Positions 40,640 to 61,374 of a stretch of 64,000 bases of DNA are shown here, one piece after another (within the stretch, counting starts at the first letter, position 1; each line of letters begins with the position of its first letter). Origin of the DNA: Halocaridina rubra (Eukaryota > Arthropoda > Malacostraca > Decapoda > Atyidae); assembly GCA_037179515.1 (NCBI GenBank), contig JAXCGZ010020799.1:1-64000 (forward strand), read 5' to 3'. Both the position numbers and the translations under genes were made by a program. The notes under the pieces were generated by a model. That model made no database searches. It saw only the letters and a program-made list of their open reading frames with translations, and had not been told where the DNA came from.

Positions 40640-41087
40640 CATCTAAATTCTCTATTGGGAGAGAACTGAAGAGTGTTGCATCTGGTGAAACGTTCAAGAC
40701 CTCAAGAACATTTGTGAACTCAAAGGGAGCAGCTCAAAGTATCCAAAGTGCCAGAATGGGACTGTTTGGCAACTGCCTTTTGGTGCCGAAATTACCTGAC
40801 CCTCAAAGGGCGTAATTGTGAATATAGCCATCGCGTCAAAGACGAAAAGATCTCACTTCTGAAGAATTGTTCACTTTTTCAGAAGAAACCACAAACTTTA
40901 GGAGTAATTTAAAAGCACTTGAAAGTGTTCTTCGGGAATGGTGCCATTGTATCAACAGGAGCTATATAGTTTTCCCACGTCCTACATGATTTTGAACATA
41001 TGTCATCAGAAAATATTAGGAAAAAATTAAATTTCTGAACATTTTTTCCCCTGATGAAATGCATTACAGCGACTGTTGTACAGCTTA
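40640..41087. other. Unassigned stretch before the BEL array
   Basis: I see no exon with usable splice sites and no recognised repeat. It ends in GCTTA, the target duplication of the LTR array. Confidence 0.5.
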
Positions 41088-42119
41088 TGTGGAGGATTTC
41101 CTGTGTGTTATTTACCCTTCGATCTTATAACCCCCTAAATTCGGAAATCCTGACACGGCTTCAGTAGAGGCCTACCACGATCTCAAAATTAAATCCTCTA
41201 CCAATAAATATAATTAATATTACATGCATAGACATACATGCACATATTTTATAAGGGGGTTTATGAACTGTTGATATGTGAATATTTAAATAAACTCTCC
41301 TCACCTTAAAGTAAAACTTCCTCATACAGAATAATAAATTTTCTAACATACATTCTACCTACGAGTGTTCAATTAAATGAGCTCATTCTGTCCCTCACAC
41401 GTAGTTATAAATATTGTTAGAAATAAGGTAAATCTGCATTGCATCTGCACTCATCTATCCGGATAACCCTGATGTCGTCAGCAATCACGGGATTCCCAAT
41501 CAAACTCATTGAATATCTTCTGATCCACGTATCTCTATCACGTTTTTTACTTGAGTGTCTCGTAACGTCTCACGAAGACAACTAATTACTCTTTCACAAA
41601 CTTATAAGTACTGTCAATGAACACACTAAACATGAGTGTCTCGTATCATCTCACGAGTACCACTAATAATAAACTTATAAGTACTGTTAACAAACACAGT
41701 AAGAATGAGTGCCTCGTAGCATCTCACGACGGCAACTAACTTTATAAGAAAGTCCCACAAACTCCTCTAGTTTGTCGGGGTCCTTGGTACTAGGACTAAG
41801 TTGACTTATGACTTGCTTACAACAGTTCTTTGTTCAACGAGGCGTGCAATAAGCTTATCAAGGAGGTGAAGGGTTAATGGCTAAAATCCATTAGTGACCT
41901 ACATTCCTTTCTCCACAGTCTTCTACAGTCCAGCCTCCCTAATAAACTACACATTATGCATACGAATATACGTGTATACATGATAGAACTTAATAAGTAT
42001 ACATGCTAAGTCTAAAAGTATACATTCATGCACTTACGTTACAATAAACGAAACTATATGCAAAATAACACTTACATAATGTACGTAGAAATAAACTGTC
42101 TTGAAATATATTCAAGACA
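41088..42119 (-). repeat. BEL LTR1 (1032 bp)
   Basis: TG...CA bounded. Longer than the others because a segment with 'gagtgtctcgta' and 'tctcacga' blocks is partly duplicated near 41545-41720. Confidence 0.9.
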
Positions 42120-42167
42120 TCCTGGGCCCCTCCAAAAAGGAAAAAATGGAGGGTCTTCCCATCAGTA

Positions 42168-43382
42168 CTACAATTTATCATCAATGATTAAGCGTGCCCA
42201 CAATTCTTTAACCCTTTGGGCAGCTTGACGTTCAGATCTTTCATAATTTGATGATTCCTCTTCGTATACTTCTGACAACAGATATTCCCATGAGAGCTTT
42301 TCAGACCAAGCTCTCTGAATAAGAAATTTTCCTCTTCTTAGTAAGGGTGATATTAGACCTAAGGGGTCCAAAAGTATACCCACCAGTGACAAAAGTTTAA
42401 GTTTGGTCAACACATCTTCTCTAGCCTTCAGACTTTTCAAAGACAACTTGTCTGTATTAACATTCCAGATTAAACTAAAGATTGATACTTTAGGAGATCT
42501 AGAATTTTCAGAAAGGCGCTGATCCAGTACCCTTTGAAGTCTTGCATTGTTGGAATTCAGTGCTTGCAGTGATATTTTGGCCTTTTCCCACTCTACATCT
42601 GCAGTATTGCATATATCAAACTGTTTCTCTTCACTGGTACAAGCATCCAACAAATTACCCACATGAACATTCTCCAATATTTCCTCCAACTGTTCTATTA
42701 GAGACTTCATTTGTCCAAAGGCACTCTGAAAATTGTGCAGGAGTGGAGTGTGGATAGGCTTCAAGGGAACGTACTCTGTAAAACTTCTAAGTGTAGTTTT
42801 ATCTTCGTAATGCACTTCTTGCTTTACTCCTATACTCTCTGGCTCCCACAACTTATTAACAGGCTCTATGGCCTTCTCAATCAACAGCTTATTAACAGGC
42901 TCTATGGTCTCTTCATTCAACAACTTATTAACTGGCCTTTTGGCCTCATCAATCAACTCTTGTGTTGTAGTAGGCAATAACTGTGTTCCTACTCGCATAA
43001 CAAGTTGGTTTTGTACACTACTGGACCCATGTTGAGTATCACGAGGAATATGGCCATACAACATGACACCACCTGGTGTTTCCATCAAAGTATAGACATC
43101 CCACTTGTTAATACCACTAACAAACTGACTAAAATGTAAGGCACCAATAACAATGCCAATGTTTTCCAGTACATCACTATAAATATCTTCATCAGCCAAC
43201 TTGTGACCATTAGACTTTAACACATTTGCAGCCTTTGCTAGTCCTGGAGTGTGGATGCTAATTACCATGTCATCAACTACGAGTAATTTAACTCTGGCTC
43301 TTCTTTTCCCCAATTTGATAACTACATTTACGACAGGAAAACTTCCTTCCTTCGTCTCAGAACGAAATGCATCAATACCAAG
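42168..43382 (-). pseudogene. BEL protein remnant, protease C-part to end
   Basis: An open frame of 381 codons runs back from the internal 3' end to just after the protease active-site region, plus further codons up to 43382 where it is cut at the LTR2 edge. It contains GKRRARVKLLVVDD, the 12-residue repeats (3 units) and the A17-like C-terminus ending LWARLIIDDKL. Gag and the DTGS site are missing. Confidence 0.85.
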
Positions 43383-44322
43383 TGTGGAGGATTTCCTGTG
43401 TGTTATTTACCCTTCGATCTTATAACCCCCTAAATTCGGAAATCCTGACACGGCTTCAGTAGAGGCCTACCACGATCTCAAAATTAAATCCTCTACCAAT
43501 AAGATATAATTAATATTACATGCATAGACATACATGCACATATTTTATAAGGGGGTTTATGAACTGTTGATATGTGAATATTTAAATAAACTCTCCTCAC
43601 CTTAAAGTAAAACTTCCTCATACAGAATAATAAATTTTCTAACATACATTCTACCTACGAGTGTGCAATTAAATGAGCTCATTCTGTCCCTCACACGTAG
43701 TTATAAATATTGTTAGAAATAAGGTAAATCTGCATTGCATCTGTACTCATCTATCCGGATAACCCTGATGTCGTCAGCAATCACGGGATTCCCAATCAAA
43801 CTCATTGAATATCTTCTGATCCACGTATCTCTATCACGTTTTTTACTTGAGTGTCTCGTAACGTCTCACGAGTACCACTAATAATAAACTTATAAGTACT
43901 GTTAACAAACACAGTAAGAATGAGTGCCTCGTAGCATCTCACGACGGCAACTAACTTTATAAGAAAGTCCCACAAACTCCTCTAGTTTGTCGGGGTCCTT
44001 GGTACTAGGACTAAGTTGACTTATGACTTGCTTACAACAGTTCTTTGTTCAACGAGGCGTTATCAAGGAGGTGAAGGGTTAATGGCTAAAATCCATTAGT
44101 GACCTACATTCCTTTCTCCACGTCTTCTACGGCCAGCCTCCCTAACAAACTACACATTATACATACGAATATACGTGTATACATGATAGAACTTAATAAG
44201 TATACATGCTAAGTCTAAAAGTATACATTCATGCACTTACGTTACAATAAACGAAACTATATGCAAAATAACACTTACATAATGTACGTAGAAATAAACT
44301 GTCTTGAAATATATTCAAGACA
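43383..44322 (-). repeat. BEL LTR2 (940 bp)
   Basis: 3' LTR of the full internal unit. TG...CA ends. Confidence 0.92.
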
Positions 44323-44370
44323 TCCTGGGCCCCTCCAAAAAGGAAAAAATGGAGGGTCTCCCCATCAGTA

Positions 44371-47163
44371 CTACAATTTATCATCAATGATTAAGCGTGC
44401 CCACAATTCTTTAACCCTTTGGGCAGCTTGACGTTCAGATCTTTCATAATTTGATGATTCCTCTTCGTATACTTCTGACAACAGATATTCCCATGAGAGC
44501 TTTTCAGACCAAGCTCTCTGAATAAGAAATTTTCCTCTTCTTAGTAAGGGTGATATTAGACCTAAGGGGTCCAAAAGTATACCCACCAGTGACAGAAGTT
44601 TAAGTTTGGTCAACACATCTTCTCTAGCCTTCAGACTTTTCAAAGACAACTTGTCTGTATTAACATTCCAGATTAAACTAAAGATTGATACTTTAGGAGA
44701 TCTAGAATTTTCAGAAAGGCGCTGATCCAGTACCCTTTGAAGTCTTGCATTGTTGGAATTTAGTGCTTGCAGTGATATTTTGGTCTTTTCCCACTCTACA
44801 TCTGCAGTATTGCATATATCAAACTGTTTCTCTTCACTGGTACAAGCATCCAACAAATTACCCACATGAACATTCTCCAATATTTCCTCCAACTGTTCTA
44901 TTAGAGACTTCATTTGTCCAAAGGCACTCTGAAAATTGTGCAGGAGTGGAGTGTGGATAGGCTTCAAGGGAACGTACTCTGTAAAACTTCTAAGTGTAGT
45001 TTTATCTTCGTAATGCACTTCTTGCTTTACTCCTATACTCTCTGGCTCCCACAACTTATTAACAGGCTCTATGGCCTTCTCAATCAACAGCTTATTAACA
45101 GGCTCTATGGCCTCTTCAATCAACAACTTATTAACAGGCTCTATGGTCTCTTCATTCAACAACTTATTAACTGGCCTTTTGGCCTCATCAATCAACTCTT
45201 GTGTTGTAGTAGGCAATAACTGTGTTCCTACTCGCATAACAAGTTGGTTTTGTACACTACTGGACCCATGTTGAGTATCACGAGGAATATGGCCATACAA
45301 CATGACACCACCTGGTGTTTCCATCAAAGTATAGACATCCCACTTGTTAATACCACTAACAAACTGACTAAAATGTAAGGCACCAATAACAATGCCAATG
45401 TTTTCCAGTACATCACTATAAATATCTTCATCAGCCAACTTGTGACCATTAGACTTTAACACATTTGCAGCCTTTGCTAGTCCTGGAGTGTGGATGCTAA
45501 TTACCATGTCATCAACTACGAGTAATTTAACTCTGGCTCTTCTTTTCCCCAATTTGATAACTACATTTACGACAGGAAAACTTCCTTCCTTCGTCTCAGA
45601 ACGAAATGCATCAATACCAAGAGACATTTCATCTACTGGGCTTAATTTAAGCCTTTCAGCTAATTCCCTAGTTATAAAGGAACACTGGGAACCTGTATCA
45701 AAGAATAACCTAGTATTTACCCAAAGATTTCCCTTTGAGCTGCTTATTTTTCCACTTGCAGTAGGCAGAGCACATGAAGGTAAATTCGGCTTCACCATTT
45801 GCCTTTGTACTGCCTTCATAGTCATCACACCAACATGTTTCTTGTCCTTTTCTGAGTCAGAATGTTCTTGCTCATTGCTTGACTCATCTATATTTGAACC
45901 ATTTTCTGACTGTTCATTCAGAAATGAAGGTTCTTCAAACCTTCTACGAAAATTTGACTCTTGTTCATAACACAAGGCTGCATGATGACCATTTTTCTTA
46001 CACTTCTTACAGTTTAACTGAGTGTAACATTCATTTGCATAATGCCCTGACTGAGTACATCTCAGACATTTGTTATTGTCTCTCAATTTGTCTCTGCGTT
46101 CATTTATGCTTACTACTTTATTACACTGTTCAGACTTATGATCTTGCCAACCACAGAATACACATTCTGTTTTACTATTTACTACATTTGCAGTAGCACC
46201 ATAACTACCCACATTCTTTTTATAGGACTGGGTCTCATCTCTCTGGGAGGTTTGGGTCTCTCCCTTTGTGTTATCTTTAGTGAAGTTGCCTTCTATATAA
46301 TATACATATTTTCCCAGTTCCTTCAAGAGGGTTTCATATGTAGGGTATTTTGTGTCTATTTTCATGCTAATCCAGTTCTCAACATCTTCTGGCAATTTCA
46401 TCATCACGAGTTCTGAAAACACCCAATCAGTATTCTCCATGTCTTTATAATTTTTCAGACTTCGAGTAATGGCTTCTACTTCCTGCTTGAACTTAAAAAG
46501 TGATGAATAATTAGAAGAGGGAGTTGGTATTTTTACCAATTTCCTCATTAAATTTCGTACAATCCTGTCCTTGCTGGCATAAACAGCTTGCAGCTGTTGA
46601 ATGCATTCATCATAACTCTCACTAGCAACAGGATATCCCTTTATGGTGTCTTTTGCATCTCCTTTAAGGGCATTTCTTAAGATGGTAAACTTTGTCATAG
46701 TTGCCATAGAAGTACTATGTACTAAACTATCAAACGTATCCCAAAACTCGTGCCATTCATCATAGTTTCCAGAGAACTGTGGTATTTTTACTTCAGGAAA
46801 TTTAGGTGTGGGTTGCCCACTGGGGAGGCTTGAACTCTCGGAACTAGGAGCTCTAGTACTCTTCATAGTTCCTAACTTACGAATCCGTTCTAGGACAGCT
46901 AAGCTAATATTATTTACTGTTTCAGCTAGATTGTCATGTTCTGTATCCTCCTCTTCAGAATCCCTTTTAAGGGGCTTATTCTCGACATATTCTTCATATT
47001 TCCTATCATATCTTCCGAATCTTTCTGTTAGCGTATGATGACATCTTTCTAAATAATTAACAACAAGTGTCTCATCATCTTTGGCAAGTTCTGTTTGACA
47101 CTGAACACAATCACGTTGAACCAATTCCCGAAGGCGTTTTAATGCCTCAGGTTTAACCGACAT
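44371..47163 (-). CDS. BEL/Pao gag-protease polyprotein fused to A17-type remnant, no RT
   Basis: Intact frame of about 930 residues from ATG at 47163 (MSVKPEALKRLREL). N-terminal coiled part, then DUF1759-type gag (PKFPEVKIPQFSGNYDEW at residue about 121), three zinc knuckles (CVFCGWQDHKSEQC, CLRCTQSGHYANEC, CKKCKKNGHHAALC), then a DUF1758-type aspartic protease with active site FFDTGSQCSFIT at residue about 489. After the protease come four 12-residue repeats (EPVNKLLIEEAI type) and a segment resembling the Peptidase_A17 region that normally follows the RT (LLSLVGILLDPLGLISPLL). RT, RNase H and integrase are absent, so the product could package RNA but not copy itself. An upstream TTG-initiated extension is not needed. 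Confidence 0.88.
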   Translation of the reverse strand: MSVKPEALKRLRELVQRDCVQCQTELAKDDETLVVNYLERCHHTLTERFGRYDRKYEEYVENKPLKRDSEEEDTEHDNLAETVNNISLAVLERIRKLGTMKSTRAPSSESSSLPSGQPTPKFPEVKIPQFSGNYDEWHEFWDTFDSLVHSTSMATMTKFTILRNALKGDAKDTIKGYPVASESYDECIQQLQAVYASKDRIVRNLMRKLVKIPTPSSNYSSLFKFKQEVEAITRSLKNYKDMENTDWVFSELVMMKLPEDVENWISMKIDTKYPTYETLLKELGKYVYYIEGNFTKDNTKGETQTSQRDETQSYKKNVGSYGATANVVNSKTECVFCGWQDHKSEQCNKVVSINERRDKLRDNNKCLRCTQSGHYANECYTQLNCKKCKKNGHHAALCYEQESNFRRRFEEPSFLNEQSENGSNIDESSNEQEHSDSEKDKKHVGVMTMKAVQRQMVKPNLPSCALPTASGKISSSKGNLWVNTRLFFDTGSQCSFITRELAERLKLSPVDEMSLGIDAFRSETKEGSFPVVNVVIKLGKRRARVKLLVVDDMVISIHTPGLAKAANVLKSNGHKLADEDIYSDVLENIGIVIGALHFSQFVSGINKWDVYTLMETPGGVMLYGHIPRDTQHGSSSVQNQLVMRVGTQLLPTTTQELIDEAKRPVNKLLNEETIEPVNKLLIEEAIEPVNKLLIEKAIEPVNKLWEPESIGVKQEVHYEDKTTLRSFTEYVPLKPIHTPLLHNFQSAFGQMKSLIEQLEEILENVHVGNLLDACTSEEKQFDICNTADVEWEKTKISLQALNSNNARLQRVLDQRLSENSRSPKVSIFSLIWNVNTDKLSLKSLKAREDVLTKLKLLSLVGILLDPLGLISPLLRRGKFLIQRAWSEKLSWEYLLSEVYEEESSNYERSERQAAQRVKELWARLIIDDKL

Positions 47164-47911
47164 ATTGAGAAAGCAAATAGAACATAAAACAACAAACAAA
47201 TAGTTGATGCAATTTTATCATCAAAGAATCCACGATCTTCTTTATGCATCCACAATGCAACAAACATTCACTCTGTAAAGAGTATCAAAGGACAATATTC
47301 CAAATCTCAAGATAATAACATACAGTTATTTAATTCCGTCAATTATGACGCCAATCCTCAAAGTGTAAAACACACTTTTCATCAATTAAACGACACTGTT
47401 AAGTCAGCAACAGTAAATGGAAAGTGTAATGCAAACCACACTGTTCCTCAAACGACACTGTGCACCTAGCAGTAGGTGGGTCACTACCTTCTGTTTATTT
47501 ACGTAAACAAAGGAATCAATACGACATTCTAGACATCGTTAAATGGGAAATATGTAAACACACAAATCCCTAAAAACCACTGTTCACCCAGCCGAAATTG
47601 GGTACTAATATCCAAATTACTTAATGGACGCTCAACTACGAAAGTATATTTCGTTTCCACAGATAGAGAAATGCTTTATCCACGTGGGAAAGGGATTATC
47701 TTACTTCTTTCAACAAACACTTAAATTTCAAAGTTATATTTGCAATATTCATGCAAATACATGCAATGCTCCTCCCTGTTTTCGCTGAAATGTGGACGAT
47801 TTTAACCGTAGAGTTTTACACTAACTTCTTACAAGGTGGGAGCTTATCTAAAATGTACACTATTTTCACCATTACCACACCAATTCTCATCCGGTTCGAA
47901 GGACCAAAAGC
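47164..47911 (-). promoter_or_regulatory. BEL leader and primer-binding region
   Basis: A 748-bp untranslated leader between the 5' LTR (LTR3) and gag. Next to the LTR the sense strand reads 'gcttttggtccttcgaaccg', a TGG-starting stretch at the expected primer-binding position; I remember similar 'ttggtccttcg' leaders from other BEL/Pao elements. The tRNA species is not assigned. Confidence 0.65.
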
Positions 47912-48851
47912 TGTGGAGGATTTCCTGTGTGTTATTTACCCTTCGATCTTATAACCCCCTAAATTCGGAAATCCTGACACGGCTTCAGTAGAGGCCTACC
48001 ACGATCTCAAAATTAAATCCTCTACCAATAAAATATAATTAATATTACATGCATAGACATACATGCAAATATTTTATATGGGGGTTTATGAACTGCTGAT
48101 ATGTGAATATTTAAATAAACTCTCCTCACCTTAAAGTAAAACTTCCTCATACAGAATAATAAATTTTCTAACATACATTCTACCTACGAGTGTGCAATTA
48201 AATGAGCTCATTCTGTCCCTCACACGTAGTTATAAATATTGTTAGAAATAAGGTAAATCTGCATTGCATCTGTACTCATCTATCCGGATAACCCTGATGT
48301 CGTCAGCAATCACGGGATTCCCAATCAAACTCATTGAATATCTTCTGATCCACGTATCTCTATCACGTTTTTTACTTGAGTGTCTCGTAACGTCTCACGA
48401 GTACCACTAATAATAAACTTATAAGTACTGTTAACAAACACAGTAAGAATGAGTGCCTCGTAGCATCTCACGACGGCAACTAACTTTATAAGAAAGTCCC
48501 ACAAACTCCTCTAGTTTGTCGGGGTCCTTGGTACTAGGACTAAGTTGACTTATGACTTGCTTACAACAGTTCTTTGTTCAACGAGGCGTTATCAAGGAGG
48601 TGAAGGGTTAATGGCTAAAATCCATTAGTGACCTACATTCCTTTCTCCACGTCTTCTACGGCCAGCCTCCCTAACAAACTACACATTATACATACGAATA
48701 TACGTGTATACATGATAGAACTTAATAAGTATACATGCTAAGTCTAAAAGTATACATTCATGCACTTACGTTACAATAAACGAAACTATATGCAAAATAA
48801 CACTTACATAATGTACGTAGAAATAAACTGTCTTGAAATATATTCAAGACA
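47912..48851 (-). repeat. BEL LTR3 (940 bp)
   Basis: 5' LTR of the full internal unit and, at the same time, 3' side of the leader-only unit. Confidence 0.92.
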
Positions 48852-49585
48852 TAGAACATAAAACAACAAACAAATAGTTGATGCAATTTTATCATCAAAG
48901 AATCCACGATCTTCTTTATGCATCCACAATGCAACAAACAATCACTCTGTAAAGAGTATCAAAGGACAATCTTCCAAATCTCAAGATAATAACATACAAT
49001 TATTTAATTCCGTCAATTATGACGCTAATCCTCAATGTGTAAAACACACTTTTCATCAGTTAATCGACACTGTTAAGTCAGCAACAGTAAATGGAAAGTG
49101 TAATGCAAACCACACTGTTCCTCAAACGACACTGTGCACCTAGCAGTAGGTGGGTCACTACCTTCTGTTTATTTACGTAAACAAAGGAATCAACACGACA
49201 TTCTGGATATCGTTAAATGGGAGATATGTAAACACACAAATCCCTAAAAACCACTGTTCACCCAGCCAAAATTGGGTACTAATATCCAAATTACTTAATG
49301 GACGCTCAACTACGAAAGTATATTTCGTTTCCACAGATAGAGAAACGCTGTATCCACGTGGGAAATGGATTCTCTTATTTATTTCAACAAACACTTAAAT
49401 TTCAAAGTTATATTTGCAATATTCATGCAAATACATGCAATGCTCCTCCCTGTTTTCGCTGAAATGTGGACGATTTTAACCGTAGAGTTTTACACTAACT
49501 TCTTACAAGGTGGGAGCTTATCTAAAATGTACACTATTTTCACCATTACCACACCAATTCTCATCCGGTTCGAAGGACCAAAAGC
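48852..49585 (-). mobile_element. BEL leader-only internal region
   Basis: Matches 47178-47911 (leader) but begins immediately at the LTR3 edge with 'tagaacataaaacaac', just upstream of where gag would start. All coding sequence is gone. Confidence 0.88.
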
Positions 49586-50534
49586 TGTGGAGGATTTCCT
49601 GTGTGTTATTTACTCTTCGATCTTATAACCCCCTAAATTCGGAAATCCTGACACGGCTTCAGTAGAGGCCTACCACGATCTCAAAATTAAATCCTCTACC
49701 AATAAATATAATTAATATTACATGCATAGACATACATGCACATATTTTATAGGGGGGTTTATGAACTGTTGATATGTGAATATTTAAATAAACTCTCCTC
49801 ACCTTAAAGTAAAACTTCCTCATACAGAATAATAAATTTTCTAACATACATTCTACCTACGAGTGTTCAATTAAATGAGCTCATTCTGTCCCTCACACGT
49901 AGTTATAAATATTGTTAGAAATACGGAATCGCATGCATCTGTACTCATCTGTCCGGACAACCCTGATGTCGTCAGCAATCACGGGACTCCGAATCAAACT
50001 CAACGAATATCTTCTGATCCACAGTATCTCTATCACGTTCTTCTACTTGAGTGTCTCATAATGCCCCACGAGAACAACAAAAATTTAACTTATAAGTACT
50101 GTCAACAAACACAGTATACATGAGTGCCTCGTAGCATCTCACGACGGCAACTAACTTTTGTAAGAAAGTCCCACAAACTCCTCTAGTTTGTCGGGGTCCT
50201 TGGTACTAGGACTAAGTTGACTTATGACTTGCTTACAACAGTTCTTTGTTCAACGAGGCGATGCAATAAGCGTTATCAAGGAGGTGAAGGGTTAATGGCT
50301 AAAATCCATTAGTGACCTACATTCCTTTCTCCACATCTTCTACGGCCAGCCTCCCTAATAAACTACACATTATACATACGAATATACGTGTATACATGAT
50401 AGAACTTAATAAGTATGCATGCTAAGTCTAAAAGTATACATTCATGCACTTACGTTACAATAAACGAAACTATATGCAAATAACACTTACATAATGTACG
50501 TAGAAATAAACTGTCTTGAAATATATTCAAGACA
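49586..50534 (-). repeat. BEL LTR4 (949 bp)
   Basis: Outer 5' LTR of the array, followed by the GCTTA repeat. Confidence 0.92.
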
Positions 50535-50917
50535 GCTTATAAAAATTTAAATTCTTAGGGAAAGTTTAAGGAAATCATATTTATCTAGATATGATTGCAA
50601 GTATACAGGAATTTGGGAATAAGTCTTATGCAAAGTAATGAAACATAAAAGATTTTTAAACATACATAAATTCTGTCATACGATGGGAGTGTCGAACACA
50701 ATTGACCTCATATTTTGAAGGATGATTTTTCATCCCTCGTAAAGACATTTTTTCAAGATATATTAACCACACATGGAAAAGGGCAACTGCATTAAAATAT
50801 TTTTTTTTTCACCAGAGAAAAGAAAATTATAAGATAAAGCCATAGTTATATGCGGGGGCTTCAAAGATACCATCTGAAAATTCTTTAAATTATCTGTATA
50901 GATAGTAACAACATACT
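50535..50917. other. Unique spacer between BEL array and single BEL
   Basis: 383 bp of AT-rich sequence, GCTTA at its left edge and ATACT at its right edge. No gene seen. Confidence 0.6.
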
Positions 50918-51850
50918 TGTGGAGGATTTCCTGTGTGTTATTTACCCTTCGATCTTATAACCCCCTAAATTCGGAAATCCTGACACGGCTTCAGTAGAGG
51001 CCTACCACGATCTCAAAATTAAATCCTCTACCAATAAATATAATTAATATTACATGCATAGACATACATGCAAATATTTTATATGGGGGTTTATGAACTG
51101 CTGATATGTGAATATTTAAATAAACTCTCCTCACCTTAAAGTAAAACTTCCTCATACAGAATAATACATTTTCTAACATACATTCTACCTACGAGTGTTC
51201 AATTAAATGAGCTCATTCTGTCCCTCACACGTAGTTATAAATATTGTTAGAAATATAATAACTCTGTACTTATCTGTCCGGACAACCCTGATGTCGTCAG
51301 CAATCACGGGACTCCGAATCAAAAACGTATCTTCTGATCCACGGATCTCTTTCACGTTCCTCTACTTGAGTGTCTCGTAACGTCTCACGAGGACAACTAA
51401 CCCTTTCGCCTATAAGCACTGTCAATGAACACAGTAAACCATGAGTGCCCCGTAGCATCTCACGACGGCAACTAATTATATGTAAGAAAGTCGTATAAAA
51501 CTCCCCTCATGTCCTTGGTACTAGGACTAAGTTGAGTTATGACTTGCTTACAACGGTTCTTTGTTCAACGAGGCGATGCAATAAGCGTTATCAAGGAGGT
51601 GAAGGGTTAATGGCTAAAATCCATTAGTGACCTACATTCCTTTCTCCACGTCTTCTACGGCCAGCCTCCCTAATAAACTACACATTATACATACGAATAT
51701 ACGTGTATACATGATAGAACTTAATAAGTATACATGCTAAGTCTAAAAGTATACATTCATGCACTTACGTTACAATAAACGAAACTATATGCAAAATAAC
51801 ACTTACATAATGTACGTAGAAATAAACTGTCTTGAAATATATTCAAGACA
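50918..51850 (-). repeat. BEL LTR5 (3' LTR)
   Basis: TGTGGAGG...CAAGACA. Next to it, in sense, the purine-rich stretch 'ggaggggcccagga' is a likely polypurine tract. Confidence 0.93.
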
Positions 51851-51897
51851 TCCTGGGCCCCTCCAAAAGGGAAAAATGGAGGGTCTCCCCATCAGTA

Positions 51898-54725
51898 CTA
51901 CAATTTATCATCAATGATTAAGCGTGCCCACAATTCTTTAACCCTTTGGGCAGCTTGACGTTCAGATCTTTCATAATTTGATGCTTCCTCTTCGTATACT
52001 TCTGACAACAGATATTCCCATGAGAGCTTTTCAGACCAAGCTCTCTGGATAAGAATTTTCCCTCTTCTTAGTAAGGGTGATATTAGACCTAAGGGGTCCA
52101 AAAATATACCCACCAGTGACAGAAGTTTATGTTTGGTCAGCACATCTTCTCTAGCCTTCAGACCTTCCAAAGACAACTTGTCTGTATTAACATTCCAGAT
52201 TAAACTAAAGATTGATACTTTAGGAGATCTAGAATTTTCAGAAAGGCGCTGATCCAGTACCCTTTGAAGTCTTGCATTGTTGGAATTCAATGCTTGCAGT
52301 GATATTTTGGCCCTTTCCCACTCTACATCTGCAGTATTGCATATATCAAACTGTTTTTCTTCACTGGTACAAGCATCCAACAAATTACCCACATGAACAT
52401 TCTCCAATATTTCCTCCAACTGTTCTATTAGAGACTCCATTTGTCCAAAGGCACTCTGAAAATTGTGTAGGAGAGGAGTGTGGATAGGCTTCAAGGGAAC
52501 GGAATCTGTAAAACTTCTAAGTGTAGTTTTATCTTCGTAACGCACTTCTTGCTTTACTCCAATACTCTCTGGCTCCCACAACTTATAAACAGGCTCTATG
52601 GCCTCTGCAATCAGCAACTTATTAACAGGCACCATGGCCTCTTCAATCAACAACTTATTATCAGGCTCTATCGCCTCTTCAATCAACAACTTATTAACAG
52701 GCTCTATGGCCTCTTTAATCAACAACTTATTAACTGGCTTTATGGCCTCATCAATCAACTCATGTGTTGTAGTAGGCAATAACTGTGTTCCTACTCGCAT
52801 AACAGTTGGTTTTGTACACTACTGGATCCATGTTGAGTATCATGAGGAATATGGCCATACAACATAACACCACCTGGTGTTTCCATCAAAGTATAAACAT
52901 CCCACTTGTTAATACCACTAACAAACTGACTAAAATGTAAGGCACCAATAACAATGCCAATGTTCTCCAGCACATCACTATAAATATCTTCATCAGCCAA
53001 CTTGTGACCATTAGACTTTAACACATTTGCAGCCTTTGCTAGTCCTGGAGTGTGGATGCTAATTACCATGTCATCAACTACGAGTAATTTAACCCTGGCT
53101 CTTCTTTTCCCCAATTTGATAACTACATTTACGACAGGAAAACTTCCTTTCTTTGTCTCAGAATGAAATGCATCAATACCAATAGACATTTCATCTACTG
53201 GGCTTAATTTAAGCCTTTCAGCTAATTCTCTAGTTATAAAGGAACACTGGGAACCTGTATCAAAGAATAACCTAGTATTTACCCAAAGATTTCCCTTTGA
53301 GCTGCTTATTTTTCCACTTGCAGTAGGCAGAGCACATGAAGGTAAACTCGTCTTCACCATTTGCCTTTGTACTGCCTTCATAGTCATCACACCAACATGT
53401 TTCTTGTCCTTTTCGGAGTCAGAATGTTCTTGCTCATTGTTTGACTCATCTAAATTTGAACCATTTCCTGACTGTTCATTCAGAAATGTAGGTTCTTCAA
53501 ACCTTCTACGATATTTTGACTCTTGTTCATAACACAAGGCTGCGTGATGACCATTTTTCTTACACTTCTTACACTTTAACTGAGTGTAACATTCATTTGC
53601 ATAATGCCCTGACTGAGTACATCTCAGACATTTGTTATTGTTTCTCAATTTGTCTCTGCGTTCATTTATGCTTACTACTTTATTACACTGTTCAGACTTA
53701 TGATCTTGCCAACCACAGAATACACATTCTGTTTTACTATTTACTACATTTGCAGTAGCACCATAACTACCCACATTCTTTTTATAGGACTGGGTCTCAT
53801 CTCTCTGGGAGGTTTGGGTCTCTCCCTTTGTGTTATCTTTAGTGAAGTTGCCTTCTATATAATATACATATTTTCCCAGTTCCTTCAAGAGGGTTTCATA
53901 TGTAGGGTATTTTGTGTCTATTTTCATGCTAATCCAGTTCTCAACATCTTCTGGCAATTTCATCATCACGAGTTCTGAAAACACCCAATCAGTGTTCTCC
54001 ATGTCTTTATAATTTTTCAGACTTCGAGTAATGGCTTCTACTTCCTGCTTGAACTTAAAAAGTGATGAATAATTAGAAGAGGGAGTTGGTATTTTTACCA
54101 ATTTCCTCATTAAATTTCGTACAATCCTGTCCTTGCTGGCATAAACAGCTTGCAGCTGTTGAATGCATTCATCATAACTCTCACTAGCAACAGGATATCC
54201 CTTTATGGTGTCTTTTGCATCTCCTTTAAGGGCATTTCTTAAGATGGTAAACTTTGTCATAGTTGCCATAGAAGTACTATGTACTAAACTATCGAACGTA
54301 TCCCAAAACTCGTTCCATTCATCATAGTTTCCAGAGAACTGTGGTATTTTTACTTCAGGAAATTTCGGTGTGGGTTGCCCACTGGGGAGGCTTGAACTCT
54401 CGGAACTAGGAGCTCTAGTACTCTTCATAGTTCCTAACTTACGAATCCGTTCTAGGACAGCTAAGCTAATATTATTTACTGTTTCAGCTAGATTGTCATG
54501 TTCTGTATCCTCCTCTTCAGAATCCCTTTTAAGGGGCTTATTCTCGACATATTCTTCATATTTCCTATCATATCTTCCGAATCTTTCTGTTAGCGTATGA
54601 TGACATCTTTCTAAATAATTAACAACAAGTGTCTCATCATCTTTGGCAAGTTCTGTTTGACACTGAACACAATCACGTTGAACCAATTCCCGAAGGCGTT
54701 TTAATGCCTCAGGTTTAACCGACAT
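51898..54725 (-). pseudogene. BEL/Pao gag-protease polyprotein, one-base frameshift
   Basis: ATG at 54725 (MSVKPEALK). The frame is like the 44371-47163 copy up to about 52795, where a one-base deletion ('cgcataacagttgg' against 'cgcataacaagttgg') shifts the frame. The rest continues at 52800-51898. Same domains: gag, three knuckles, DTGS protease, five 12-residue repeats, A17-like end. RT and integrase absent here too. Confidence 0.88.
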
Positions 54726-55473
54726 ATTGAGAAAGCAAATAGAACATAAAACAACAAACAAATAGTTGATGCAATTTTATCATCAAAGAATCCACGATCT
54801 TCTTTATGCATCCACAATGCAACAAACAATCACTCTGTAAAGAGTATCAAAGGACAATCTTCCAAATCTCAAGATAATAACATACAGTTATTTAATTCCG
54901 TCAATTATGACGCCAATCCTCAAAGTGTAAAACACACTTTTCATCAGTTAAACGACACTGTTAAGTCAGCAACAGTAAATGGAAAGTGTAATGCAAACCA
55001 CACTGTTCCTCAAACGACACTGTGCACCTAGCAGTAGGTGGGTCACTACCTTCTGTTTATTTACGTAAACAAAGGAATCAATACGACATTCTAGATATCG
55101 TTAAATGGGAAATATGTAAACACACAAATCCCTAAACACCACTGTTCACCCAGCCGAAATTGGGTACTAATATCCAAATTACTTAATGGACGCTCTACTA
55201 CGAAAGTATATTTCGTTTCCACAGATAGAGAAACGCTTTATCCACGTGGGAAATGGATTCTCTTATTTATTTCAACAACCACTTAAATTTCAAAGGTATA
55301 TTTGCAATATTCATGCAAATACATGCAATGCTCCTCCCTGTTTTCGCTGAAATGTGGAAGATTTTAACCGTAGAGTTTTACACTTACTTCTTACAAGGCG
55401 GGAGCTTATCTAAAATGTACACTATTTTCACCATTACCACACCAATTCTCATCCGGTTCGAAGGACCAAAAGC

Positions 55474-56406
55474 TGTGGAGGATTTCCTGTGTGTTATTTA
55501 CCCTTCGATCTTATAACCCCCTAAATTCGGAAATCCTGACACGGCTTCAGTAGAGGCCTACCACGATCTCAAAATTAAATCCTCTACCAATAAATATAAT
55601 TAATATTACATGCATAGACATACATGCAAATATTTTATATGGGAGTTTATGAACTGCTGATATGTGAATATTTAAATAAACTCTCCTCACCTTAAAGTAA
55701 AACTTCCTCATACAGAATAATACATTTTCTAACATACATTCTACCTACGAGTGTTCAATTAAATGAGCTCATTCTGTCCCTCACACGTAGTTATAAATAT
55801 TGTTAGAAATATAATAACTCTGTACTTATCTGTCCGGACAACCCTGATGTCGTCAGCAATCACGGGACTCCGAATCAAAAACGTATCTTCTGATCCACGG
55901 ATCTCTTTCACGTTCCTCTACTTGAGTGTCTCGTAACGTCTCACGAGGACAACTAACCCTTTCGCCTATAAGCACTGTCAATGAACACAGTAAACCATGA
56001 GTGCCCCGTAGCATCTCACGACGGCAACTAATTATATGTAAGAAAGTCGTATAAAACTCCCCTCATGTCCTTGGTACTAGGACTAAGTTGAGTTATGACT
56101 TGCTTACAACGGTTCTTTGTTCAACGAGGCGATGCAATAAGCGTTATCAAGGAGGTGAAGGGTTAATGGCTAAAATCCATTAGTGACTAACATTCCTTTC
56201 TCCACGTCTTCTACGGCCAGCCTCCCTAATAAACTACACATTATACATACGAATATACGTGTATACATGATAGAACTTAATAAGTATACATGCTAAGTCT
56301 AAAAGTATACATTCATGCACTTACGTTACAATAAACGAAACTATATGCAAAATAACACTTACATAATGTACGTAGAAATAAACTGTCTTGAAATATATTC
56401 AAGACA
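55474..56406 (-). repeat. BEL LTR6 (5' LTR)
   Basis: 933 bp, TG...CA, followed by ATACT. Confidence 0.93.
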
Positions 56407-56594
56407 ATACTCAACAAAAATCTGTAAATTAAATGGAAAAATAATGTCAAAGTGTTTTCGATGAGTGGGTTGTTGCCTATATATTTTGATGTTTCTATTG
56501 TTGTCTGTTGTTAGTGTTAATTTAGGTGTCTAATGTCACTGTTGCATTATTACGTCCTGTTGTTATTTGCTTCTTTTTTTGCAATTTAAGCACA

Positions 56595-57763: not shown

Positions 57764-57927
57764 GTAAGGGATTAGCATGAGAATTCTCATTTGTTGTTTA
57801 ACTTGGTGTCTTTGACTTCAATCCCCCATGTAATGGGGTGGCAAAGTCAAAGTACAGACATACACCTTAAACCAATATACCTCCATAACTCCTCTTCTCT
57901 CCTTGCAGATAAAGGGCTACCATACCT

Positions 57928-58116
57928 GTAAAGGTTTGTATTAATAATGAGCGTATATCATGGCTTCCAGTTTATTGTTGCAAGATGTGTGCCGGTCGGC
58001 TCAATCAATATAAACATTAGAAACCAAATAGGTAGAAGTACAATGAAAACAAAAGAGGTGCGATAAAGGGAATAACCTTATTATCAATAAAGGATTAGAT
58101 CACTTATATCATAACA
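57928..58116 (-). repeat. Gypsy 3' LTR
   Basis: 'tgtaaaggtttgtattaata' to 'atatcataaca'. Confidence 0.93.
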
Positions 58117-58222
58117 TTCCTTTCCCCTAGAATTTGCAATACATCACATATAAAAAATAAGTCATCAACTTCTTAAAACAAGGCACACATGAAAATTCTA
58201 TATAAGGAGTTCAAAACACTAT

Positions 58223-61171
58223 TTACAAATTAAGACGATCAGGGGGCTTGATATTTCTCTGAGACCTTCTCACTACTGGAGTCTGTATAGGTAACTCATC
58301 ACATGCACTATTACTTACATCTCTTGAAGGTACATTAATAACATCTTTTGAAAGTACACCATTTGTTTCTATAATATTAGAATTGGTTGTTAATTCACTA
58401 GGAACACTTGTTACAACAGGATTATCAGCTTCAATTTCACTTACAACAGGATTATCATAATCATTATTCAACATTTCATTATTAGACTGATTGAAATCTC
58501 CAAAATATCTATGCATCAATTGATCAGAATGTCTTTTCCATATCATATTCCCTGAACAATGTACTTGCACTTTATAATTTCTTAAACCTAATACTTCTAC
58601 AATTCTACCTTCCACCCATAGTGGACCTTTACCATAGTTACGTGCAAACACAGCATCATCAACTTGGTACATGTTTTCTTCATTTGAAAGACTATCATTA
58701 CATTCTTTACTTTCTTTCAGCTTTACATCTACAGTACCTCTGAAATTTCTATTAAACATAATCTCTGCAGGAGCTTTTCCTGTAGCAGAATGTACAGTTC
58801 TTCTATAGTTATAAAGAAAACGACAAACTCTAGTAGTATAATGTCCCTCTTTAAATTTCCTTAAACCCTCCTTAAATGTCCTTACAGCTCTTTCTGCAAG
58901 ACCATTAGAGGCTGGATGATAAGGGGCAGGACAAACATGTTTTATACCATTCTTTTGCAAAAACACCTTCATTTCCTGTGATACAAAATTAGGAGCATTA
59001 TCTGACACTATCATGTCTGGCAAGCCAAAATTAGAAAATACTTTCCTTAGGTGATTTATAGTGACACCAGATGTTGCAGAACTAGAGAACTGTATATCTA
59101 AGAACTTACTATAAGAATCAATGACAATTAGAAAATATTTACCATCAATAGGACCTGCATAGTCCATATGGACCCTAGACCATGGTTTTCCCGTATTAGG
59201 CCATGACAAAGTATTAGCTTGTGGTTGTTTATAATTCTTAAAACAAATATTACAATTCTTTGTCATCTCTGCAAGGTCTTGGTCAATCTTTGGCCACCAA
59301 ACCCATTTCCTAGCCTCTGCTTTCATGGCATTTATTCCATTATGACCATTATGTAAATGAGTCAATATCTTACACCTCAACTCTACAGGTATTACAATAC
59401 GATTCCTGTATAACACTACATCATTATGAAGAGACAATTCATCTTTAACATTACCATATTCCATGAGTAACAAATTATTTTCTTTAGACCAACCAAATCT
59501 TAGACAATTAATTAACTGAGACATCACTTTATCTTTCTTATTATATTGTCTAATTACCTTATAAGAAATTTCATCAAAATCAAGCAATTCCACTAATCTT
59601 ACATACTCAGCAGGAATCCCAGACTGAATTTCATCTTCTACTGGAAGACGGCTAAGTGCATCGGCAATAACATTTTCCTTTCCAGGTTTATGCACTAGAT
59701 CAAAGTCATATTGAGAAAGTAACAAAGCCCATCTTTGTATCCTAGAATTGGCATTCTGAGGAATTGGCTTATCTTTACCAAACAATCCTAAAAGTGGTTT
59801 ATGGTCCGTTCTGGCCATAAATTTTCTACCCAAAAGAAAATATCTAAATCTTTTGACAGCGAAAATCAAAGACAATCCTTCTTTATCCAACTGTGAATAT
59901 TTCATCTCAGCACTACTCAATTTCTTACTTGCAAAATAAATAGGTCTTTCTACTCCATTGACCTTTTGCAATAACACACATCCTACACCAACAGGTGAAG
60001 CATCAACTTCTACAATCAAGGGATATGACCCATCAAAATTTACTAATACTTTAGAGTCTACAAAATCTTGTTTAAGACATTTAAATGCATTCTGTTCAAT
60101 CTTTGTCCATTCAAACTTGGCACCTTTTTTCAGTAAATCATACAATGGAGCTGATTTAGTTGAAAAATTCTTAATAAATCTACAGTAAAATGTAATCATC
60201 CCTAAAAATGAGTGGACCTCTGCTACTGAGGTAGGACAAGGAGCATCCAAAATTGCTTTAGCCTTCTTTGGGGATGGTTTTATTCCTTCACTTGATATAC
60301 AGTAACCTAAATATTCAATACATTCCATATTTAAAACTGTTTTACTCTTATTTATCTGTACATTATGAGATTGCAACACATTTAAAACTTTCTTGAGTCT
60401 CTCATCATGCTCATCTTTAGTTTCACCACTGACAACTATATCATCCATATATGCAGCAACACCATCAATATTACATAAGATCTGTGAAATAAATCTTTGA
60501 AAAATACCAGGAGAAGAGGACAAGCCAAAGGGCAACCTCTTGTATTTATACATTCCTTTGTGTGTATTAATAACTAAAAACTCTTGACTTTGTTCTTCAA
60601 CAGGTATTTGCAAATATGCATTCTTCAAATCAATCTTAGAAAAAATTTTGCCTTTGCCAACACTGCACAAAAGTTCATCAATCTTAGGCAAGGGGTATTT
60701 ATCACATTGTATTTGCTTATTCAAATGCTTAAAATCTGCACATATGCGAATTTCTTTCTTATTCTCTTTTAACACAGGTACAATAGGCGCAGCCCATTCA
60801 CTATGAGATACAGATTCTATAATATTTTCACTTACAAGTTTATCAATGGCCTCTTCAACCATCTCTTTATGGTAAAATGGAACAGTACGTGCTTTTACAA
60901 ACTTTGGAATAGCATCACTCTTTATATGAATTTTAGCTACAATGCTAGAAATAGGTTTGCTTACATTAACATTATAATCTTCAAACACTTGTTCAACACT
61001 TACATTATGAACATTGTTAACCTTGGTACTTCCATCTAATCCTGCTAAATAAATACCAACTTGTTTCATTAGATTTTTACCACATAAATTTGTATTCTTT
61101 GAACCAACAACATAAAAGACTTGTGATACATTATATCCATTATACACAACAGGAGCAACCACTTTTCCCAT
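58223..61171 (-). CDS. Gypsy pol: protease remnant, RT, RNase H, integrase
   Basis: Open frame of 982 residues from ATG at 61171. The first about 60 residues look like the C-terminal part of a retropepsin without the D-S/T-G site. RT: EWAAPIVPVLKENKKEIRIC, KIDLKNAYLQIPV, RLPFGLSSSPGIFQRF and catalytic AAYMDDIVVSG. RNase H: VEVDASPVGVGCVLLQ, YSQLDKEGLSLIFAVKRFRY, ARTDHKPLLGLFG. Tether PGKENVIADALSRLP. Integrase: an HHCC-type zinc finger (HLHNGHNG...CNICFKNYKQP), then core residues in MDYAGPIDGKYFLIVID, MIVSDNAPNF and HPASNGLAERAVRTFKEGLR (D, D, E all present). No frameshift or stop. It would need gag supplied from elsewhere. Confidence 0.93.
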   Translation of the reverse strand: MGKVVAPVVYNGYNVSQVFYVVGSKNTNLCGKNLMKQVGIYLAGLDGSTKVNNVHNVSVEQVFEDYNVNVSKPISSIVAKIHIKSDAIPKFVKARTVPFYHKEMVEEAIDKLVSENIIESVSHSEWAAPIVPVLKENKKEIRICADFKHLNKQIQCDKYPLPKIDELLCSVGKGKIFSKIDLKNAYLQIPVEEQSQEFLVINTHKGMYKYKRLPFGLSSSPGIFQRFISQILCNIDGVAAYMDDIVVSGETKDEHDERLKKVLNVLQSHNVQINKSKTVLNMECIEYLGYCISSEGIKPSPKKAKAILDAPCPTSVAEVHSFLGMITFYCRFIKNFSTKSAPLYDLLKKGAKFEWTKIEQNAFKCLKQDFVDSKVLVNFDGSYPLIVEVDASPVGVGCVLLQKVNGVERPIYFASKKLSSAEMKYSQLDKEGLSLIFAVKRFRYFLLGRKFMARTDHKPLLGLFGKDKPIPQNANSRIQRWALLLSQYDFDLVHKPGKENVIADALSRLPVEDEIQSGIPAEYVRLVELLDFDEISYKVIRQYNKKDKVMSQLINCLRFGWSKENNLLLMEYGNVKDELSLHNDVVLYRNRIVIPVELRCKILTHLHNGHNGINAMKAEARKWVWWPKIDQDLAEMTKNCNICFKNYKQPQANTLSWPNTGKPWSRVHMDYAGPIDGKYFLIVIDSYSKFLDIQFSSSATSGVTINHLRKVFSNFGLPDMIVSDNAPNFVSQEMKVFLQKNGIKHVCPAPYHPASNGLAERAVRTFKEGLRKFKEGHYTTRVCRFLYNYRRTVHSATGKAPAEIMFNRNFRGTVDVKLKESKECNDSLSNEENMYQVDDAVFARNYGKGPLWVEGRIVEVLGLRNYKVQVHCSGNMIWKRHSDQLMHRYFGDFNQSNNEMLNNDYDNPVVSEIEADNPVVTSVPSELTTNSNIIETNGVLSKDVINVPSRDVSNSACDELPIQTPVVRRSQRNIKPPDRLNL

Positions 61172-61184
61172 CCTCGTCGCCAAA

Positions 61185-61374
61185 TGTAAAAGTTTGTATT
61201 AATAATGAGCGTATATCATGGCTTCCAGTTTATTGTTGCAAGATGTGTGCCGGTCGGCTCAATCAATATAAACATTAGAAACCAAATAGGTAGAAGTACA
61301 ATGAAAACAAAAGAGGTGCGATAAAGGGAATAACCTTATTATCAATAAAGGATTAGATCACTTATATCATAACA
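61185..61374 (-). repeat. Gypsy 5' LTR
   Basis: One visible difference from the 3' LTR is TGTAAAAG against TGTAAAGG near its edge; the rest looks the same. Confidence 0.93.

Follow-up and report, generated by a model that had tools for sequence, protein, structure and literature searches.

A BEL/Pao-derived retroelement family of Halocaridina rubra that keeps gag and protease and probably depends on a full-length relative

The window analyzed here is a 64,000-nucleotide (nt) stretch of the decapod Halocaridina rubra (assembly GCA_037179515.1, contig JAXCGZ010020799.1, positions 1 to 64,000 of the forward strand), and our subject is a short family of retroelements related to BEL/Pao that it contains. 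Six long terminal repeats (LTRs) of this family span 41088-56406, all on the minus strand, and belong to the elements E2 and E4 and to an outer copy, A, around E2. The coding region of E2 is a single open reading frame (ORF) that joins gag and an aspartic protease (PR) to a relic of pol, and its stop lies 48 nt before the 3' LTR. The span 44371-47199 of a sequence-only reading of the window is this ORF; the element extends from 43383 to 48851. Its features are listed below, with amino acids abbreviated as aa, reverse transcriptase as RT and target-site duplication as TSD.

43383..48851, minus strand: element E2, LTR to LTR, complete BEL/Pao element nested in copy A, no TSD
47912..48851, minus strand: E2 5' LTR, 940 bp, 4/940 differences from the 3' LTR
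47889..47906, minus strand: primer-binding site (PBS) TGGTCCTTCGAACCGGAT, after the 5' LTR
44371..47199, minus strand: ORF of 942 codons in a single frame (gag, PR, 12-aa repeats, RT remnant, A17 stub), MSVK ATG at 47163
46360..46776, minus strand: capsid region, DUF1759, residues 142-280, profile match E 2e-26
45970..46164, minus strand: three CCHC zinc knuckles, residues 346-410
45130..45744, minus strand: aspartic protease, DTGS, residues 486-690, by Asp_protease_2 match and retropepsin-like structure matches
45051..45196, minus strand: 36-bp (12-aa) tandem repeat, 4.1 copies
44878..44898, minus strand: deletion junction 1, ~507 nt absent relative to the full-length relative, in frame
44857..44868, minus strand: position of the RT catalytic motif, HVGN (YVDN in the full-length relative)
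44478..44489, minus strand: deletion junction 2, ~2151 nt absent, in frame (rest of A17, integrase, DUF5641)
44437..44610, minus strand: Peptidase_A17 stub, profile positions 1-58 of 162
44323..44349, minus strand: candidate polypurine tract region, 5' of the 3' LTR
43383..44322, minus strand: E2 3' LTR, 940 bp, partner of the 5' LTR

A structure model of the E2 gag-PR portion (mean predicted local distance difference test score, pLDDT, 69; predicted template-modeling score, pTM, 0.37) gave retropepsins as the best match (E 7.9e-4), together with weak matches to the capsids of murine leukemia virus and Arc (E 0.0096 and 0.072). No profile match to RVT_1, RNase H or integrase was obtained in the E2 ORF at E up to 10. 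The segment preceding the A17 stub aligns with the RT catalytic-motif region, and reads HVGN where relatives read YVD[DN] or similar; HVGN with the junction segment was found by pattern in 16 of the 18 family copies described below, L010 and L014 giving no pattern match. The description of the element as free of RT and integrase thus holds at the level of domain matches, with the correction that an RT remnant persists before A17. Since this remnant is all that is left of RT, with no RNase H or integrase match, the E2/E4 family is a derivative of BEL/Pao (Belpaoviridae) and not an autonomous member. The features that place it there are a DUF1759 gag with CCHC knuckles, TG..CA LTRs, a PBS and a TSD, the last lacking in E2. 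The PBS TGGTCCTTCGAACCGGAT resembles what we take to be the 3' end of tRNA-Tyr, and the 24 nt that follow the 5' LTR, including the PBS, are identical in all 13 copies with a usable LTR pair.

The second element in the window, E4, has the same organization:

50918..56406, minus strand: element E4, LTR to LTR, TSD ATACT at 50913-50917 and 56407-56411 (plus-strand letters)
55474..56406, minus strand: E4 5' LTR, 933 bp, 3/933 differences from the 3' LTR
52791..54761, minus strand: gag-PR frame, 656 aa, by ORF and domain matches
51898..52800, minus strand: tail frame, 300 aa (repeats, RT remnant, A17 stub), by ORF and domain matches
52578-52759, minus strand: 36-bp repeat, 5.1 copies
50918..51850, minus strand: E4 3' LTR, 933 bp, partner of the 5' LTR

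The near-identical LTRs and clean TSD ascribed to this copy by the sequence-only reading were borne out. Its further claim of an intact gag-protease is accurate for the E2 frame and for the E4 gag-PR frame, with the qualification that a 1-nt indel splits the E4 tail from gag-PR. The 36-bp repeat forms a coding minisatellite that varies in copy number across the short family and occurs also at 42848-42957; one unit of it is visible in the full-length relative at locus L029.

The genome was searched for a full BEL sharing this LTR, and one was found that has the leader and gag in common as well. The RT query was the nearest database BEL (P0001), and the best 150 of 1072 candidate places were scored. 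The best RT place has a frame of 1810 aa, and stop-free frames of this length occur at two places. Just upstream of the 1810-aa frame, L029 matches E2 in its LTR pieces (90-100%), its leader (98.3%) and an ORF piece (89.6%). The leader figure is for the whole of 712 nt, starting with the PBS, and the U5 end is identical at 124 of 124 nt. Downstream, L030 carries RVT_1, the whole A17 profile, Integrase_H2C2 and DUF5641, with YVDN at the RT motif; its rve match of 26.6 bits is below the cut-off of 32.6, and its C-terminal stretch resembles that of the short element. The overlapping LTR pieces of the relative are identical over 488 of 488 nt, and so the relative, too, has been active recently.

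Seventeen of the 150 RT-bearing loci were examined. Six belong to this family (L029/L030, L031-L034 and, judged over 251 nt only, probably L036), and the other 11 are BELs at 24-33% protein identity. Among the six, the C-terminal end is seen in L030 only, the LTR in all but L033 and L036, and the leader in all but L036. The full-length relative thus shares LTR, leader, capsid and C-terminal end with the short element and, unlike it, has RT, whole A17, integrase and DUF5641, with a different protease. Both deletions that set the short family apart, whose junctions were worked out by hand from alignment coordinates against the relative, are multiples of three, and by eye ~33 nt more are absent before junction 1. 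By these alignments, the short family and a full BEL of the same genome share a common origin, the short one having undergone internal deletion. Other BEL RT matches in the genome also have long open frames (1188, 1269, 1829 aa and others); those above ~2400 aa may cross N gaps, as at C2691.

The LTR was used as a query against the family's own 1.18-Gb assembly. This gave 1820 first-look candidates, and the best 40, which were scored, all match at 99-100%. Sequences of 10 kb each were fetched for 20 loci, each on a different contig, out of the 26 contigs besides the window's own that these 40 places cover. The succession that had been noticed in the window, of gag, three knuckles and DTGS protease followed by an A17-like segment, recurs in 16 of the 20 fetched loci, 15 of them with most of the leader and L023 with its last 48 nt and no 5' LTR. 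Of the remaining four, L022 and L024 end at contig ends, while L026 and L028 have the LTR only in the fetched 10 kb. These 16 loci, with E2 and E4, make up the 18 copies analyzed, which are thus drawn from the LTR matches closest to E4. LTR and TSD counts refer to 13 of them, L015, L021, L023, L025 and L027 having no usable LTR pair. A 5-bp TSD is present in 12 of the 13; those of three copies lie in (TA)n and that of one in ATT repeats, and these four are therefore less informative. The two LTRs differ at no position in three copies, at one in four, at three in three, at four in two and at ten in one. The family has thus moved recently, its copies at separate sites carrying TSDs of their own and LTR pairs that differ at no more than ten positions.

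Local or segmental duplication would offer another way of spreading a deleted structure. The compound array in the window (A with E2 inside), in which E2 lacks a TSD, is what might suggest it; the copies lie on many contigs, and the distinct TSDs at separate copies rule it out, leaving it a highly improbable account of how the shared structure spread.

In 13 of the 18 copies a single open frame of ~930 aa runs from the ATG of gag through to the stop of the tail. In a wider sample, the NC-PR protein (NC, nucleocapsid) is found at 94-100% identity in all 113 scored places, the best 113 of 2058 first-look candidates; 110 have no internal stop across its 361 aa. Being the best-scoring, these places lean towards intact copies. 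Frames of 923-971 codons occur in 82 of the 113, with 29 shorter and two longer, and 70 frames are exactly 923, 935, 947, 959 or 971 codons, i.e. steps of the 12-aa repeat. Of the two over-long frames, C606 has the usual short tail, and the stretch below C2691 is a run of N. Taken together, the short family is abundant and has been active recently. It was also sought elsewhere: the LTR pattern had no match in viral contigs, and no close relatives were found in the protein database, the best being at 24% and 35%. The latter (P0151), a 458-aa gag on a 31-kb ENA contig, is the closest protein found outside this genome.

Comparison with the full-length relative in 150-nt windows, for 16 copies (excluding L021 and L023), revealed a step along the frame. 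Identity is 93-100% in leader and capsid and 89-94% in the next window, and falls to 67-87% past the border between capsid and nucleocapsid; the last, repeat-containing window is at 82-95%. In the capsid, L012 is 0.2% from L029, and the mean distance to L029 is 3.0% versus 2.6% among short copies, so that capsid distances fail to separate the short and full-length kinds. In the protease, short copies are on average 3.0% apart (maximum 6.8%) and 15.4-19.6% from the five RT-bearing copies compared; a sixth, L036, is 13% away over 251 nt. Between E2 and the relative, synonymous divergence (dS) is 0.09 in capsid, 0.45 in NC, 0.55 in PR and 0.51 in the tail, and the ratio of nonsynonymous to synonymous divergence (dN/dS) is 0.16, 0.41, 0.19 and 0.41, respectively. 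Short copies are also mosaic among themselves, with 4 of 119 pairs at p<1e-6 (16 copies); all 50 sites at which L013 and L016 differ lie in the first half. These patterns show that recombination with the full-length relative has mixed leader and capsid, and that NC-PR and the pol relic make up a lineage private to the short copies. Switching of template between co-packaged RNAs would be the ordinary explanation of both this exchange and the mosaics. A private protease means one not recently exchanged with the five RT-bearing copies compared, and no PR exchange was seen with any RT-bearing copy examined. The claim that the lineage conserves its own gag is supported, with a qualification: the protease is private and constrained, and the capsid half is shared with the relative by recombination, so that its constraint may partly be that of the relative.

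The constraint on the private protease could also stem from a full-length subfamily of this NC-PR type that has escaped detection, selection acting there and short copies receiving the type by recombination or repeated deletion. The scoring of the best 150 of 1072 RT candidates and the best 113 of 2058 NC-PR candidates leaves some room for such a subfamily. Among these places, none of the 113 with NC-PR shares strand and contig with any of the 150 with RT (one contig is shared, on opposite strands), and of the six RT-bearing members of this family among the 17 loci, five have the divergent protease, as does L036 over its short stretch. The single deletion structure common to all 18 short copies argues against repeated deletions. 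We regard this subfamily as quite unlikely.

Selection was assessed by fitting a codon model to the 18 copies. The dN/dS estimates (omega) are 0.3 (0.25-0.4) for capsid, 0.6 (0.4-0.85) for NC, 0.3 (0.2-0.4) for PR and 0.7 (0.5-1.0) for the tail, and twice the log-likelihood difference (2dlnL) from omega 1 is 54.4, 5.5, 26.1 and 2.2, respectively; with its 2.2, the tail alone is compatible with omega 1. PR and tail differ in omega (2dlnL 8.4, p 0.004). Ratios of nonsynonymous to synonymous polymorphism (pN/pS) from pairwise comparison are 0.37 for gag, 0.38 for PR and 0.56 for the tail. Across copies, capsid and protease are thus under purifying selection, with little or none detectable on the pol relic. 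A long open frame, kept in 13 of 18 copies and in 82 of the 113 best-scoring places, might also be expected of a fused Gag-PR-relic protein taken over by the host; the many copies, identical LTRs, TSDs and near-neutral tail are those of a mobile family, and we give the idea hardly any credence.

We consider it probable, with good confidence, that these copies represent a helper-dependent, semi-autonomous BEL/Pao family, recently active and keeping its Gag-PR. The family retains LTRs, PBS and leader, and its capsid, nucleocapsid and protease are encoded in a single frame. The gag-PR frame is kept without the enzymes (18 copies read, the larger family sampled), and an autonomous-type relative with a shared LTR and PBS region is present in the same genome. 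Mobilization in trans by this relative is suggested by the shared LTR and leader and by the recombination between the two. In such a scheme, the short RNA (LTR, PBS, leader) would be translated into Gag-PR with an inert tail and packaged into particles that also hold the relative's Gag-Pol. The full-length relative would supply RT, RNase H and integrase, the short element its own Gag and protease, probably with a cis advantage. Particles with both RNAs would give the template switching seen as recombination; the need for both kinds of Gag to assemble into a single particle would keep the capsid interchangeable, and the divergent NC-PR block would recombine little.

A more specific version, which we offer tentatively and which may well prove wrong, is a two-part retroelement whose capsid forms one recombining pool shared with the helper (co-assembly), with NC and protease private and the protease selected in cis. 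If true, the short element would depend on a protease of its own making even though it borrows RT and integrase, and the sharp rise in divergence where capsid meets nucleocapsid would mark a recombination stratum separating two species of retroelement that share one particle.

Several points weigh against a semi-autonomous family that needs its own Gag-PR. The frame of L017 is cut by a stop at codon 331, yet its LTRs are identical. L013, L016 and L025 share the loss of the first cysteine of knuckle 3, and L015 has lost the second; the LTR pairs of L013 and L016 are identical and their TSDs separate, and the spread of these two with an altered NC argues against a strict need in cis. The codon model used single trees despite recombination, on copies chosen by the closeness of their LTR to E4. 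E2 versus E4 alone gives 0.54 for gag, 0.34 for PR and 0.31 for the tail (few sites), an order that differs from the 18-copy result. The contrast of nonsynonymous to synonymous counts between singleton and shared changes is weak in gag (63/26 versus 51/39, p 0.06); the tail is gag-like (38/9 versus 24/16, p 0.056), so the contrast is not specific, and in PR it is reversed (15/13 versus 27/18, p 0.63). The constraint on the capsid may be that of the relative, given the exchange between the two. Finally, the supply of enzymes in trans is inferred from genome sequence.

Much of this would suit a passive parasite, in which the family's own proteins are unneeded, Gag and PR come from the relative, and the open frames and low dN/dS are due to the youth of the copies and to recombination with that relative. 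The freely exchanged capsid, the spread of copies with a lost NC cysteine and singleton contrasts that are weak, and reversed in PR, are as such a parasite would have them. The protease is harder to reconcile with it, being a private clade at 15.4-19.6% from the five RT-bearing copies compared, with omega 0.3 and a 2dlnL of 26.1 versus 1; between E2 and the relative its dN/dS is 0.19 at a dS of 0.55, and in their tail these copies evolve almost neutrally. A passive parasite is in our view unlikely, and a semi-autonomous family that keeps its protease remains the preferred explanation.

The statement of the sequence-only reading that most non-autonomous LTR elements lose gag is too strong: gag-keeping elements of plants have been described and, going by a title, a gag-only element of a mosquito. 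The latter, CM-gag of Culex pipiens (1997; cited in PMC3286476), is by its title, through which alone it is known to us, reportedly a repeated element with only a gag gene. On that footing, the likeness to the BEL case is that of a repeated animal element with a gag gene.

Closer parallels come from grasses; here and below, comparisons are with the portions of the cited papers available to us. Wheat RLG_Sabrina_SA, a Ty3/gypsy element with GAG and protease and without RT and integrase, has been called semi-autonomous (PMC9744471). Like the BEL family it has a high copy number, and it is thought to use an autonomous partner, RLG_Wilma (PMC9744471). The plant gypsy pair shares few motifs, whereas the BEL pair shares and exchanges a near-identical leader and capsid; the BEL family, unlike RLG_Sabrina_SA as described there, also keeps a truncated pol fused in frame. 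Einkorn RLG_Quinta is non-autonomous, keeps GAG and uses RLG_Cereba, a partner identified by LTR and PBS, and it too shows recombination around GAG (PMC11302176). It carries GAG and a domain of unknown function, with no protease named in the text at hand, and it diverges in GAG, whereas the BEL family shares the capsid and diverges in NC-PR (PMC11302176). For the Arabidopsis TR-GAG element AT5TE33540, which has LTRs and one GAG ORF, a new insertion was directly observed (PMC8704663); this is an ATCOPIA63 element of a plant with GAG only, and the BEL family has protease as well.

Among animals, where internally deleted or replaced elements also occur, mouse IAP I-Delta-1 has a 1.9 kb internal deletion in gag-pol, is non-autonomous and accounts for the majority of IAP insertional mutations (PMC7472028). 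It is a murine endogenous retrovirus with its deletion placed in gag-pol, and the likeness lies in internal deletion and non-autonomy. Of the C and D (competent and defective) types of bovine ERVK[2-1-LTR], the defective type outnumbers the competent one and dominates new insertions; it has no functional genes in the account available, unlike the Gag-PR-keeping BEL family (PMC10924933). Bel-Pao copies with truncated gag-pol were reported in a midge survey, and an RT-less kind that keeps gag-PR was not found in the available text of the mosquito and midge BEL surveys (PMC3442997, PMC3286476, PMC8504770). No semi-autonomous BEL/Pao case was found in the open-access literature, among the matches listed. 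The semi-autonomous kind is thus already known; what is new is its occurrence in BEL/Pao, with the partner identified, and the split between shared capsid and private protease. A kind described from grasses is thereby extended to an animal and to BEL/Pao. Whether Gag and protease act in cis or are freely borrowed is hard to test in LTR retrotransposons. One genome here holds a young, numerous, pol-less Gag-PR family together with the full-length relative, and the pol relic, read in frame with Gag-PR, serves as a near-neutral control; the question is therefore testable on natural copies.

The outer copy around E2 has the following parts:

49586..50534, minus strand: copy A 5' LTR, by LTR comparison
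42120..43382, minus strand: copy A 3' internal part, same RT-less PR-tail fusion, by ORF and domain matches
41088..42119, minus strand: copy A 3' LTR, TSD GCTTA at 41083-41087 and 50535-50539

In the compound of A and E2 (41088-50534), the outer GCTTA repeats match, and E2 ends flush with its own LTRs without a TSD. Copy A has no equivalent of 45622-47176, so that 1.55 kb is gone at the E2 site. Its LTRs are 3.8% apart, and its 3' LTR is only 0.5-0.9% from the E2 LTRs. A plain nested insertion of E2 into A is ruled out by the missing TSD and these LTR distances.

Beyond E4, a gypsy-like element lies on the minus strand at 57927-61374, with 190-bp LTRs 99.5% alike and a TSD of ATACC. Its single 986-aa ORF has RT, RNase H and integrase domains and no gag, and begins, by eye, at a PBS-like stretch directly after the 5' LTR, a mirror image of the BEL case. 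The window also holds an ORF of a long interspersed nuclear element, which makes a malacostracan host likely: its first named protein matches are from Petrolisthes (56%) and Armadillidium (53%).

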